Source: a virus. From it: DNA of 22,501 nucleotides. A model generated the notes under the pieces. That model did no database searches and was not told the origin of the DNA. It worked only from the letters and a program-made list of their open reading frames with translations. Shown here piece after piece: positions 1-22,453 of the stretch; positions within the stretch are counted from its first letter, which is position 1; every line of letters starts with the position of its first letter. The position numbers and the translations under genes are program-made. The stretch lies in IMG/VR virus record IMGVR_UViG_3300044815_000079, positions 1-22,501 of that record, one strand, 5' to 3'.

Positions 1-68
1 CCGATCGCGCCGAAGACGATGAAGTACAGCAAGAAGAGGATGAGGTTGTCCACGGCCGAGCCCAGGTT
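1..68 (-). CDS. Possible partial membrane-protein reading frame at the window edge
   Basis: On the minus strand an open frame runs off the left edge of the window and encodes a strongly hydrophobic stretch (core residues NLILFLLYFIVFGAIG) that would be one transmembrane helix. An in-frame TAG at 71-69 closes the frame upstream. The only conventional start is GTG at 53-51, and no ribosome binding site is visible before it. All codons of this frame end in G or C, which supports coding, but the plus-strand frame ending in TAA at 70-72 shares the same third positions and gives a basic peptide typical of antisense to a membrane helix. It could be a separate phage gene downstream of the tail operon, or a host gene interrupted by a prophage end. 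I cannot name the family. Confidence 0.25.
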
Positions 69-144
69 CTAAAGGTCTCGTAGCCTAGAAGATCGGCGCC
101 AAAAAGGAAAGACCCACGGCTAGGGGCTGCTGGCATCGATCATC

Positions 145-18776: not shown

Positions 18777-19127
18777 TCACTTCCCTTTCTGGTTTGCTTT
18801 GAGCGTGTTGCTGATCACGATCAGCGCAGCAGTAGCGGTTTGGAACGTCGTGCTGCTGACCGTCAGACCCGAGCGCATCAACTTCTCGGCGGCGTGCACG
18901 TCGTCGTCGATCTTCGAGACCTGACTGAGCGCGCTCTTGGCCTGGGCTTGCGTGATCTGCCCGCCGTTCTTCAGATCGGCGATGGTGTTGTAGGCAGCGG
19001 TGATCTGCCCCTTGGCTTCCTGAAGATAGTCCTCGGGCGTGACCGGCTTCTGCAAAGAAGCACAGGCGCCAAGGAACATGACCACGAGGGCCACCCACAA
19101 GAAGTAGCTTCGTTGATGGAGTTTCAT
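18777..19127 (-). CDS. Phage lipoprotein of the lysis cassette, 116 aa
   Basis: The N-terminus (MKLHQRSYFLWVALVVMFLGAC) is a signal peptide with lipobox L19-G20-A21-C22, so mature Cys22 should be lipidated. The rest is mainly helical (PEDYLQEAKGQITAAYNTIADL, AQAKSALSQVSKIDDDVHAAEKLM), with a moderately hydrophobic C-terminal helix TATAALIVISNTL. It lies 32 bases after the endolysin gene, where outer-membrane spanin subunits are usually found, and has GAAAGG upstream of its ATG. It is larger than most o-spanins and less proline-rich, and no overlapping i-spanin frame was found. A spanin role is therefore only a possibility. The C-terminal helix is not hydrophobic enough to claim a one-piece u-spanin. 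Confidence 0.75.
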   Translation of the reverse strand: MKLHQRSYFLWVALVVMFLGACASLQKPVTPEDYLQEAKGQITAAYNTIADLKNGGQITQAQAKSALSQVSKIDDDVHAAEKLMRSGLTVSSTTFQTATAALIVISNTLKANQKGK

Positions 19128-19159: not shown

Positions 19160-19708
19160 TCAACTGAGTGCGCCAATACGCTGAAGGAACCAACCGAACT
19201 CGAAGTCCTCTTGCGAGACGTTCGCTTCGGCGAGTTCGATGTAGCGCACACCTTGTTGTGAGTTCAGCATGCGAAGAAGGACGGTCTCGCCGTCGGCCCC
19301 GCGCTTTCCCAAGAATTGCTTCATGCCATACAGCGTCATCTTCCCGACGTTGCCGTCAACAATCATGTTGGGGTACGTCGTCACGCCCAGGTTCAGCACA
19401 TTCAATGCGCGCTGCAGGAACTTGCTGGCCGTGGTCGGCCCCATGTTCACGCCCGTATCAATCAACTCGTCAGCCACCGAAGGCGACAACGACGCGATTT
19501 GATCGAACTTCGGATCGGTCCAGTACTTCGACCGATAGAGAGCATCGGCAAACGACTCTGGCAGATCGCGCATGTCGCCCTCATAGCCGTTAGCGCGTGC
19601 CTCGTGCTCGGTGACACCGAAACGGGTGGGCCCGCCTTTGTCAGACGGATGATCGACAAAGTCGCCCTCCCGTTTGATGATCGCCTTGACCGTGTCATCG
19701 ATCTTCAT
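19160..19708 (-). CDS. Endolysin, GH108-type N-acetylmuramidase, 182 aa
   Basis: This degrades peptidoglycan at the end of infection. The N-terminal glycosyl hydrolase 108 motif runs from KREGDFVDHPSDKGG to PTRFGVT: catalytic Glu14, Asp23, Gly25-Gly26, Thr28 and Gly31 are in family positions. The C-terminal half (about 85-180) resembles the peptidoglycan-binding domain PG_binding_3, with DTGVNMGPTTASKFLQRALN near 84-103 and a final EFGWFLQRI. There is no signal peptide or signal-anchor, so release through a holin is needed. Its start codon overlaps the stop of the upstream holin candidate as ATGA, typical of holin-endolysin pairs. Length is normal for the family. Confidence 0.92.
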   Translation of the reverse strand: MKIDDTVKAIIKREGDFVDHPSDKGGPTRFGVTEHEARANGYEGDMRDLPESFADALYRSKYWTDPKFDQIASLSPSVADELIDTGVNMGPTTASKFLQRALNVLNLGVTTYPNMIVDGNVGKMTLYGMKQFLGKRGADGETVLLRMLNSQQGVRYIELAEANVSQEDFEFGWFLQRIGALS

Positions 19709-20034
19709 GGTTTCACATCCGTGAGCTGCGTCGGCTCAGCGCTCTTCGCGCCCGCTTCCTCCACAGTCAAGCTCTTCTGCGGATAGATGCGCGCAGCCAG
19801 GCCAATCAACGTAACGACCAAGGGAAACACGAACGCCGGGATGTGCAGGGTCGTGCTGGCCCACGCTTGCAAGTCATGCTGCGAGAAGCACGAGGCATCA
19901 GTGCCGTCGCATGTGACCGGCAACGCAAGGTATGCGGCCCACATTGCGCCGGCCAACCCCATCACCCATGCGCTTGCCATCTTGGGCAACGCGCCGATGT
20001 TCGTAGCCAGCTTGTCTTTCATCAGTTGATCCAT
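19705..20034 (-). CDS. Probable holin, two transmembrane helices, 109 aa
   Basis: A small membrane protein directly preceding and translationally coupled to the endolysin. ATG 20034 has GGAG seven bases upstream. Two transmembrane segments are visible: about 18-40 (MASAWVMGLAGAMWAAYLALP) and about 62-84 (LHIPAFVFPLVVTLIGLAAR). They are joined by a polar loop with two cysteines (C42, C49) that could form a disulfide. The tail is charged. Two-helix topology, size and position fit a holin, which makes the inner-membrane lesion that lets the endolysin reach the wall. I cannot assign it to a specific Pfam holin family with certainty; it resembles short two-helix holins of proteobacterial phages. 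Confidence 0.75.
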   Translation of the reverse strand: MDQLMKDKLATNIGALPKMASAWVMGLAGAMWAAYLALPVTCDGTDASCFSQHDLQAWASTTLHIPAFVFPLVVTLIGLAARIYPQKSLTVEEAGAKSAEPTQLTDVKP

Positions 20035-20052: not shown

Positions 20053-20442
20053 TCAACGAGGTACTTCGGGACGGCCGAGCGGCGAGTAGTCGCTTTGAAT
20101 CCACTTCGCGAAGTCAGGCCGCGTCTCGATGACAAACGCTTCCAACTGCTGAACCTTGCGCAACAGACGTTCGTGACGTTCGTTGAACACGGCTTCACGC
20201 ATCCGAAGCGCAGCAATCGTTTCGTCTTTGATGCGGTGGCTGGCGACCAGCTCCTTGATCATTGCCGCCTGCTCGGCGATCTCTTGCTCGCGGCGGATGA
20301 TCCAGTTGGATTCACCTCGGGCTTCTTGGGTACTGGTGTTGTCTCGCGCGATGCGCTTGCGCACCGCGGGGTACATCGCCGCAACCAACGCGACTGAACC
20401 GACGAACGTCCCAACACCCTTCAGGATGGGTTCAAAGTCCAC
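20053..20442 (-). CDS. Membrane-anchored coiled-coil protein of unknown role, 129 aa
   Basis: I chose GTG at 20442: AAGG lies nine bases upstream and it begins just after the previous stop codon (20458-20456). An ATG at 20481 inside the upstream gene would give a 142-residue form. The protein has one transmembrane segment near the N-terminus (GVGTFVGSVALVAAMYP, about 7-24), followed by VRKRIAR and then a coiled coil of about 60 residues (REQEIAEQAAMIKELVASH to RLLRKVQQLEAFV). One helix plus coiled coil recalls an i-spanin (Rz). But the basic residues directly after the helix predict by the positive-inside rule that the coiled coil is cytoplasmic, opposite to Rz. It may be a lysis regulator or a membrane anchor; unknown. 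Confidence 0.6.
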   Translation of the reverse strand: MDFEPILKGVGTFVGSVALVAAMYPAVRKRIARDNTSTQEARGESNWIIRREQEIAEQAAMIKELVASHRIKDETIAALRMREAVFNERHERLLRKVQQLEAFVIETRPDFAKWIQSDYSPLGRPEVPR

Positions 20443-20455
20443 TTGGAATGCCTTG

Positions 20456-20938
20456 TTAGGCCGACAGACGATCGTTGACATCACCGGTCCGATAGAGCGC
20501 CAGGAACGCCGCCAAAACCACTGCGATCTCCATCCCGCTGTCGGGCGTGTACGTGCCAAGTGCGAACATGCCCGAAGCGGTTGTCCAACCCCAAAGCGCG
20601 ATGCCGTAGCCGTTCACGACGAACCCGGCCAGGTTGTTGGGCTTGTCGGTGAACCTCCACCAGACACCTCCTGCGTGCAAGACGAAAGCAATTGCCCAGG
20701 CCCAGCCCGGCATGAAGATCATGTAGGCGTTGGCCGGCCAAGCCATCGGATCGAACGGTGGCAAGAAGCCGATGGCCTTGAAGATCGAAGCCGCGAGCAT
20801 GATGGTGCGCACCGTCGTCGTGTCACCTTGAAGAAAGGCGATACGAAAGATGCGCCGCCAGTTGTTCAACGTCTGCTCGCCCAGCTTGGGCTTGTATGAC
20901 GGATCGGCAAGGTACCGTGGCAGTTGATCTTTGGTCAT
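20456..20938 (-). CDS. Multi-pass membrane protein of unknown function, 160 aa
   Basis: I chose ATG at 20938 (MTKDQLPRYLADP); an alternative ATG three codons upstream overlaps the end of the DUF1996 gene region. After an N-terminal polar helix with NNWRRIFRIAF, three or four membrane segments follow: about 42-60 (VRTIMLAASIFKAIGFL), 68-92 (ANAYMIFMPGWAWAIAFVLHAGGVWW), 103-127 (LAGFVVNGYGIALWGWTTASGMFALG) and 133-149 (GMEIAVVLAAFLALY). It is unusually rich in tryptophan. It lies between the secreted DUF1996 protein and the coiled-coil membrane protein, upstream of the holin. It could be an extra lysis or antiholin component or a superinfection-exclusion protein; nothing in the sequence decides this. 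Confidence 0.65.
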   Translation of the reverse strand: MTKDQLPRYLADPSYKPKLGEQTLNNWRRIFRIAFLQGDTTTVRTIMLAASIFKAIGFLPPFDPMAWPANAYMIFMPGWAWAIAFVLHAGGVWWRFTDKPNNLAGFVVNGYGIALWGWTTASGMFALGTYTPDSGMEIAVVLAAFLALYRTGDVNDRLSA

Positions 20939-20948
20939 GACCAGCATC

Positions 20949-22427
20949 TCAGTAGAGCGTCCGGCCATCGCCGAGCAGGAAGTCGTGGCAGTCAAGGCTC
21001 TTGTTCAGGCACTGCGTAACCCAGGTCTGCATGACCTCCTGCTTCCAGCCGTTGAACCAGTCGCCATGACTGCAATAGCCGGCCGGGCCGTCGTACTTGT
21101 CGCACGACAATCGCCATCCCGCAGTTGTCTGGCCTTCTGCCAGCGCATAGTGGATGTTGTAGGTGATGGCTGGGAGCGCGACAGGATGGCTGGCGGGGCA
21201 CCCGTTGCTCGCATAGGCCATGTGCGACTTGTGGTCCGGCGAATCGAGGTTCACGCCGTCCCAGCACTGTGGGAACCCGACGGTCATCACCAATTGGTGC
21301 CCGGGACCGGTGCCGCAGTCGGGAATAGTCGAGGGCCAGCCGATCTCTCCACCATCGCAAGTGAATCGCGCTGGACCCCAGGGCGTCTCGGCGGTTGCCA
21401 TCGGGTCTCCGGCAATCACCCGCAGTCCAGCAGGAAAAGGCTGAACATCGGCATTCTGAACACCCAGGTAACCGGTCTTGTAGTACGCCTGATTGTCTGT
21501 GGGTGTGATCGGAAAGCCCTTGCTATCCAGCATCGCCGGGACCCAATAACCGGTGCAGTTCGCCGTGCCACCAGGGGCAGACGACGCTGTGCAACCAACG
21601 ATGTTCCCAGCGGTTGTGAACGCCGTGATGTTCGTGTTGCCGAAGAAGACGTGCAGGTGCGACTTGCCGGGCTGACCGGGATAGACGATCGGGTCGTCGT
21701 ACGCCATCGACACCGACTTCATCGAGAACCTTGCTGCGCCCACATCCGTCGCAGCGGGCACATAAGGGCCACCGTTGTACGGGATAGGTTGAATCCGTTC
21801 GCCTTCAGCGACGACCAACGGCGACATCAACGGGCCGTTGACCGGCAAACCTCCGTGAGCAGGCATGTCCGGCATCGTTGGTGGGTCTTGTGGCACCGTT
21901 GGTGCTGGGCTGGGGTCTGGGTCGACGAGGACCGCGGCCGGGCCGCTCTTGAGCTGGCAGACCTTCACGACACCGGGGGCCGGATCGGTGCCGAAGAACT
22001 CGTTCGAGCACGTGGCCGACTTGCGCACGGTGAACTGAATCCAACGCGTGTCGATGCCGTAGCGCACAAGCTGCGGCTCCTTCAGATAGATCGCATCGCC
22101 TTCGTTCACCAGTGGTAGCCACTCCGGCACGGGCGGCGGGTCGGGAACCATCGTCGTGACGATCACGATGTCTTGACGGCAGAGATAGTTGATCGGCACC
22201 GGCTTCTTGGGTGGCTTGACGGCGTTGATCGTGACTGTCGATCGCTTCGCAGCTTCGTCTTGGCAAAGCTGTTGTGTATCGAAGGTGGGCGTGAGCGGCT
22301 TGCCTTTGCCGGCTCCGCTGTAGAGCTGCCAAGGACCGGGCGTCACGACGGAATTGATCGCGGCATGCGTCGGATCGAGCAGAGCAAACAATGCGAGCAC
22401 CACAACGATGGTCTTGAAGCGAATCAT
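20949..22427 (-). CDS. Secreted DUF1996-domain protein, 492 aa
   Basis: I chose ATG at 22427, with AAAGGA six bases upstream; an in-frame TTG at 22442 would place that site inside the gene. Residues 1-22 are a signal peptide (MIRFKTIVVVLALFALLDPTHA). About 30-160 form an N-terminal domain ending in VRYGIDTRWI and CSNEFFGTDPAPGVVKVC (140-157), a motif I associate with secreted carbohydrate-active proteins. A proline-rich linker (about 165-200) follows. About 234-470 match DUF1996: DDPIVYPGQPGKSHLHVFFGN, GYWVPAML, FPQCWDGVNLDSPDHKSHMAY and CPASHPVALPAITYNIHY. The protein has 14 cysteines, consistent with periplasmic or extracellular disulfides. The domain has no established function to my knowledge. 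In a phage it may act on or bind the cell surface, or be a lysogenic-conversion gene. Confidence 0.85.
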   Translation of the reverse strand: MIRFKTIVVVLALFALLDPTHAAINSVVTPGPWQLYSGAGKGKPLTPTFDTQQLCQDEAAKRSTVTINAVKPPKKPVPINYLCRQDIVIVTTMVPDPPPVPEWLPLVNEGDAIYLKEPQLVRYGIDTRWIQFTVRKSATCSNEFFGTDPAPGVVKVCQLKSGPAAVLVDPDPSPAPTVPQDPPTMPDMPAHGGLPVNGPLMSPLVVAEGERIQPIPYNGGPYVPAATDVGAARFSMKSVSMAYDDPIVYPGQPGKSHLHVFFGNTNITAFTTAGNIVGCTASSAPGGTANCTGYWVPAMLDSKGFPITPTDNQAYYKTGYLGVQNADVQPFPAGLRVIAGDPMATAETPWGPARFTCDGGEIGWPSTIPDCGTGPGHQLVMTVGFPQCWDGVNLDSPDHKSHMAYASNGCPASHPVALPAITYNIHYALAEGQTTAGWRLSCDKYDGPAGYCSHGDWFNGWKQEVMQTWVTQCLNKSLDCHDFLLGDGRTLY

Positions 22428-22453
22428 GGTCAATCCTTTCAACTACACAATGC

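Follow-up and report, generated by a model that had tools for sequence, protein, structure and literature searches.

Why would a tailed phage carry, right beside its lysis genes, a DUF1996 protein with an additional N-terminal module, and what might such a protein do? The window (the whole stretch of 22,501 nucleotides analysed here) is a tailed-phage structural region that encodes capsid E, head decoration, a ClpP-type protease, a tape measure, a major tail protein and tail proteins. As judged by the capsid and by the 1228-aa tail-region protein, the closest isolates are phages of Curvibacter, Acidovorax and Pseudomonas, and a Burkholderiales host is therefore likely. Head and tail genes follow the same order in the window, Curvibacter PCA1 and Acidovorax ACF1; in the stretches of these two close isolates that we inspected, annotated DUF1996 is absent. 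The gene and its surroundings are laid out as follows:

22434..22439, minus strand: Shine-Dalgarno-like AAAGGA, assigned by sequence, just upstream of the DUF1996 gene's ATG
20949..22427, minus strand: coding sequence of the DUF1996 protein (P0001), an open reading frame of 492 aa with ATG at 22427 and TGA at 20951-20949
22362..22427, minus strand: putative signal peptide, residues 1-22, assigned by eye, with predicted cleavage after THA
22137..22361, minus strand: low-confidence N-terminal stretch, residues 23-97, pLDDT mostly < 50
21948..22124, minus strand: SUEL/rhamnose-binding-lectin-like module, residues 102-160 (confident region 100-160), from the model and comparisons
21813..21935, minus strand: Pro-rich linker, residues 165-205, pLDDT < 50 at 170-200
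20952..21785, minus strand: DUF1996 domain as modelled alone, residues 215-492, pLDDT 94.4, pTM 0.91
21045-21695, minus strand: Pfam match to PF09362, residues 245-461, E 2.1e-42
21651..21659, minus strand: HxH (H257 and H259), candidate site, kept in 103/103 and 102/103 rows
21060..21068, minus strand: HxD (H454 and D456), candidate site, kept in 101/103 rows each, the other two being gaps
20456..20947, minus strand: 163-aa protein, hydrophobic over several stretches, its ATG following the DUF1996 stop by 1 nt; first gene of the lysis-gene block
20053..20460, minus strand: lysis-region protein (open reading frame), hydrophobic in its N-terminal part and charged in the rest
19705..20034, minus strand: small hydrophobic protein, putative holin
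19160..19708, minus strand: endolysin with GH108 and PG_binding_3 (Pfam)
18777..19127, minus strand: small protein with a lipobox (LGAC) in its sequence, possible outer spanin

Further down from the lysis genes come a small lipoprotein and then the head and tail genes. The identification of a phage-encoded DUF1996 protein, made in an earlier note from the DNA letters, holds: the gene lies in the structural region, and its product matches PF09362 over the full model (1-237) with 146 bits against a cut-off of 27. The N-terminus, MIRFK followed by TIVVVLALFALL and DPTHA, is signal-peptide-like as judged by eye, and the predicted model has a helix at residues 2-14. KSHLHVFF, DHKSHMAY, SHP, CSNEFFGTDPAPGVVK and 14 cysteines are all found in P0001, which is in line with the exported-looking, cysteine-rich protein that the note described.

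Among the 103 rows of the DUF1996 alignment, D245, H257, H259, W295, P297, Y315, H402, H454, D456 and W461 are invariant or nearly so, and this mapping bears out the suspected strong conservation of the His motifs: HxH and HxD are kept in 101-103 of the 103 rows. Most of these near-invariant residues also belong to the formula published for fungal DUF1996 proteins, D-x4-P-x5-6-HxH-x3-G ... CP ... HxDx3GW, with D-x-S-x-YW-x-P as a further element (as given in a portion of PMC4738358). P0001 follows the formula with D245, P250, H257, H259, G263, C410-P411, H454, D456 and G460-W461, and in place of the further element it reads N290-C-T292-G-Y294-W295-V-P297, with YWxP present and the D and S not. 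Since position 290 is mostly N (80 of the 103 bacterial and phage rows), D/S is a trait of the 14 fungal proteins and not of the family. The cysteines have changed as well: the conserved pair C236/C284 (C in 98/103 and 99/103 rows) is lost in P0001, where M and A stand instead, conserved H240 is missing, and cysteines 279, 291, 442 and 452 occur where relatives mostly have other residues. Read from the sequence, the loss of C236/C284 together with the gain of C279/C291 and C442/C452 suggests rewired disulfides.

Structure prediction with a fold search, which the earlier note had proposed as a check, tentatively placed the N-terminal module (SUEL family, Z 5.6) and gave no confident PDB fold for DUF1996. 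Compared alone with solved structures, the DUF1996 fold reached a best Foldseek E of 7e-3 at probability 0.06 and a best VIA Z of 2.2, and sequence searches with the single protein and with profiles found no convincing solved relative; this lack does not prove a new fold. The profile rows against solved structures fall in the N-terminal and Pro/Ala-rich part and were rejected as unconvincing. Pfam gives only PF09362 and thus no recognised catalytic domain in P0001, and no PHROG matched. Two sorts of BFVD hit were set aside, as the aligned region was unseen: A0A8S5M5W4, a 542-aa phage ‘lysozyme’ below 0.001 (TM 0.09, probability 0.92), and the giant-virus entries Q5UNV5 and A0A6N1P2N1 (probability 1.00 over 85-136 columns).

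The N-terminal module had been likened to parts of carbohydrate-active proteins, and this can now be narrowed: as modelled, it is SUEL/rhamnose-binding-lectin-like, of a kind common to phage adhesins, and is predicted to bind sugar. In the VIA search with the whole-protein model, the top five rows for the module are SUEL-family entries (Z 5.6, 5.4, 5.3, 4.8 and 4.6), with the next, unrelated row at Z 3.3; the rmsd is 2.8-3.9 over 60-67 residues, and with Z < 8 the likeness is possibly just a common arrangement. The sugar ligands of the salmon lectin CSL3 are Glu7, Tyr27, Asn74, Asp79, Gly83 and Lys86 (from a portion of PMC3269628), and the putative ligands E109, Y123, N142, D148, G152 and K155 are counterparts of all six. 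In the structural alignment of residues 102..164 with 1..95 of 2zx0, the D, G and K positions coincide exactly and those of E and N to within one residue, as counted from the alignment ends and not taken from residue pairs. Profile comparison of the module with six SUEL domains scored 22.4, the best of 200 column shuffles 16.2, over a span of only 18-19 columns (the C-terminal motif) at 39-57% probability; adding the phage adhesin copies lifts the score to 24.4, with shuffles run for the first set only. PF02140 (SUEL_Lectin) matched neither the window record nor 12 phage records at E 1, nor the module alone at E 5. The YG and DPxxGxxK motifs are found, while R after YG and C after DP are absent, as are the central portion of true SUEL domains and most of their cysteines; the pairing scheme of four conserved SUEL disulfides (PMC3269628, in part) has no equivalent in a module with only two cysteines, C140 and C157.

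How widespread is the module? An iterated profile search of the collected loci, some of which repeat the same contig, recovered 85 copies, 43 of them different, in 40 loci, single or in tandem, up to four. Both C140 and C157 are kept in 43/43 of these sequences; among the putative ligand positions, 109 holds E in 31 sequences and 123 holds Y or F in 38, and D is found at 148 in 35, G at 152 in 27, K at 155 in 37 and N at 142 in 17. Bacterial carriers without DUF1996 include proteins from the genomes of the Aquimonas and Rhizobacter loci and from two further genomes. The module is present in only 3 genomes of a 274-genome sample of the class, the SUEL family search of 299 genomes of the phylum found 2, which served solely to reach the PDB lectin sequences, and a bacterial module sequence used as query gave no phage match at E 0.1. 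Two bacterial proteins (L175 1180-2379 and L182 1279-1773) consist almost wholly of SUEL-like modules, in four and two copies. On a 322-kb phage contig (L111 8993-14391) a DUF1996 gene is followed by one for a protein with two SUEL-like modules and DUF1800 and then by one for a DUF1501 protein, i.e. a phage-borne DUF1800/DUF1501 pair adjoining DUF1996.

Used alone as query, the window module matches 18 phage records at an E limit of 1, every one from a phage of Lactococcus or Streptococcus; two of these rows stand at 0.1 and one at 0.5. It occurs twice in Ceduovirus AdpB, and also in streptococcal tail proteins, with 42-43% tblastn identity between the window module and the adhesin copies. The two copies in AdpB of phage 62402 lie at about residues 125-243 (profile E 4e-17 and 6e-12); in M6202 the match is at ~residues 180-244 of a 361-aa protein that, from gene order, we take to be the gp35 equivalent. 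According to passages of PMC5156332, C2 phages bind a carbohydrate first, and in other C2viruses it was the middle part of gp35 that determined host range; the middle region of M6202 gp35 is described there as unrelated, and host recognition may also be independent of that region. The lactococcal cell wall polysaccharide is rhamnose-rich (PMC10821137, in part). Carbohydrate-first binding and a rhamnose-rich host wall are compatible with rhamnose binding by the module, and are no proof of it; literature searches on SUEL lectins in phages and on Ceduovirus lectins showed nothing on the point among the matches listed. Taken together, the module data suggest that the SUEL lectin fold has a branch in prokaryotes and phages which Pfam misses and which occurs in virion adhesins as well as in exported proteins.

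The position next to lysis genes, likewise reported in the earlier note, is confirmed by the 1 nt that separates the DUF1996 gene from the first gene of the block and by the GH108 endolysin within it. A homologue of the 163-aa protein (40% identity) is encoded immediately upstream of DUF1996 in L099, and the holin-like protein shares 42.6% identity with a protein of L097 that has a DUF7940 match. Of ten neighbouring proteins selected for their lysis-gene appearance, seven match endolysin or tail-lysozyme PHROGs (L101, L102, L103, L104, L108, L114 and L131), one a spanin PHROG and two neither. Relatives of the window endolysin lie within ~4 kb of DUF1996 in L114, L142, L144 and L148. The two sets together give 10 loci beyond the window with such neighbours, out of 63 non-redundant viral loci, of which a subset was inspected individually and many have short contigs. 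As the endolysins beside DUF1996 come from different, unrelated families, the association is not simply that of one lineage. Endolysin, tail spike, tail fiber, holin and spanin are among the best-populated families of 111 neighbours from a subset of loci, each with no more than 3 members. By eye, DUF1996 lies near tail, head or packaging genes instead in L107, L115 and L137, and that of L121 sits amid opposite-strand genes unlike lysis genes. A scan with the window endolysin recovered 9 phage loci; inspection by eye of the ORF lists of the two best found no DUF1996-like protein near the endolysin.

Outside phages, DUF1996 keeps company with carbohydrate-related proteins. F5/8C domains are fused to it in 3/10 long bacterial or viral proteins scanned; among 102 trimmed DUF1996 proteins, F5/8C is found in two and LysM in one. 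In several Actinobacteria, genes for F5/8C proteins lie 3 to 271 nt from DUF1996. Eight Actinobacterial neighbours, picked from the commonest neighbour cluster, comprise six with a weak match to a GH2-type barrel, one GH16 and one with F5/8C only, and a ninth (L065) matched no family. Fungal DUF1996 co-occurs with CBM1, CBM6 and WSC (PMC7679414, in part). As far as domain and gene content can tell, the fusions and neighbours tie DUF1996 to polysaccharide, without proving catalysis.

What does the phage protein do? We favour, tentatively and at somewhat less than an even chance, an exported glycan-binding, possibly glycan-processing, release factor; that P0001 acts on or adheres to host-surface sugars in some manner is probable. 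The interpretation in the earlier note is supported in part: its anatomy of the protein and its carbohydrate guess for the second module hold up, and attack on surface polysaccharide, help in release or a changed lysogen surface are conjectural roles. From what was computed, namely the gene, the domain, the repetition and spread of the module, the co-location with lysis genes and the glycan-linked DUF1996 neighbours elsewhere, we infer export, sugar binding, glycan activity and a benefit for release. The late phage gene would yield a Sec-exported, disulfide-containing, two-part glycan protein, whose minimal SUEL/rhamnose-binding-lectin-type module may dock on an envelope glycan that carries deoxyhexose or galactose (LPS O-chain or exopolysaccharide), with DUF1996 then binding or processing the docked polysaccharide via the invariant HxH/HxD residues. 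Produced along with the lysis proteins, P0001 would build up in the periplasm and be set free at lysis, where it could help the progeny leave and not stick to debris. A bolder version, in which P0001 is a soluble exported counterpart of phage adhesins and DUF1996 an envelope-glycan enzyme of a new class, its fold undescribed, that strips or covers receptors at lysis, strikes us as rather unlikely.

The module type held in common with phage adhesins, the export-type start and the position by the lysis genes would also suit an exported lectin that shields or strips away the glycan which the phage itself uses as receptor, both on the infected cell and on debris, and so blocks superinfection, DUF1996 being no more than a second binding domain. 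T5 Llp is an instance of such receptor masking. Being soluble and produced only as infection ends, such a protein would act late, however, and we regard this explanation as improbable.

Could P0001 instead benefit the host? The distribution of DUF1996 bears on this. Scanning IMG/VR with alignment A1 gave 84 relatives, of which 79 distinct loci were kept, and another viral scan gave 14 loci; 558 bacterial relatives, the best 80 of them kept, came from 84,980 species genomes with one peptide pattern. With one to six peptide patterns per scan, the counts are lower bounds. The statement that DUF1996 is known mainly from fungi and some bacteria therefore needs correction: the domain is not rare in bacteria. 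In an annotated phage collection, 5/50,697 records match DUF1996: one complete phage genome (MW202423), two fragments < 2 kb and two 501-kb Salmonella records. The latter, AFYI01000007 (H3) and AGRM01000005 (H4), are Salmonella contigs within a phage collection that encode a DUF1996 relative. Among 19 papers that mention DUF1996, no title refers to a phage.

A tree of 80 domains, drawn from 51 viral and 29 bacterial rows, puts the window protein into an all-viral group of nine rows (86/91, below the starred level), and a second all-viral group has 20 rows (94/90). The viral and bacterial labels need 12 changes, as compared to 23.9 in shuffles, and the starred branches force at least 5. The viral groups and label changes indicate that DUF1996 is an old, established and recurrent phage gene with several phage-bacteria exchanges. 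Signal-peptide-like starts, by a simple counting rule, are found in 69/81 viral DUF1996 ORFs, and phages L101, L103 and L156 have two DUF1996 copies each. Both genes of L101 (5692-6897 and 9452-11350) encode SUEL-like modules, the proteins being 38-44% identical to the window protein. Cargo that serves the host, through lysogenic conversion or through nutrient or polysaccharide use, would accord with the many bacterial homologues, the repeated exchange and the secreted glycosidase-like Actinobacterial neighbours; given the tight coupling to the lysis block and the window's lack of any sign of lysogeny, we think it distinctly unlikely.

A part of the virion, such as an adhesin or an accessory tail protein that the particle brings along, is very unlikely: virion proteins do carry the module, and the gene comes after large tail-type genes in several phages, but P0001 has a signal peptide, and the module's cysteine pair, kept throughout the 43-sequence set, is found in 0/4 virion copies, as expected if only that set is exported. 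Fungal DUF1996 proteins were observed in vacuoles and have a reported link to stress tolerance (PMC4738358, in part), which speaks against the release factor that we favour. The idea that DUF1996 binds metal or serves in stress and has no glycan function receives little credence from us. In its favour are the sensitivity of fungal deletion mutants to metals, oxidants, heat and UV (PMC4738358, in part) and an HxH/HxD set that could hold a metal; against it, cell wall stress from Congo red and calcofluor affected the same mutants too (same source), and DUF1996 is recurrently fused to sugar-binding domains.

Through its phage lysis context and a sugar-binding-like module with predicted ligands, the proposed exported release factor opens the large DUF1996 family to experimental test. 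Several known systems resemble it in part. The fungal and bacterial DUF1996 (PF09362) proteins, such as Beauveria Vlp1-3, have in common with it the whole-domain match and the D-x4-P, HxH-x3-G, YWxP, CP and HxDx3GW elements; the window protein differs in being encoded by a phage, in its signal peptide, its SUEL-like module, its lost cysteine pair and its new cysteines, and in reading N-x-T where the fungal proteins have D-x-S before YW. Secreted Actinobacterial DUF1996 and F5/8C proteins likewise join DUF1996 to a sugar-binding-type module, but there F5/8C replaces the SUEL-like module, and the genes are chromosomal and adjoin glycosidase-like genes. The SUEL or L-rhamnose-binding lectins (CSL3, SUL-I) and the latrophilin Lec domains (PF02140) appear similar to the module in predicted fold, in the YG and DPxxGxxK motifs and in the putative counterparts of the six CSL3 ligands, whereas the module has ~60 rather than ~95 residues, one cysteine pair rather than four disulfides, and lies under Pfam detection. 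Finally, AdpB of Ceduovirus (gp35/l15; phages 62402 and M6202) contains two copies of the window's module type and, unlike the window protein, is a virion adhesin with neither the cysteine pair nor DUF1996.
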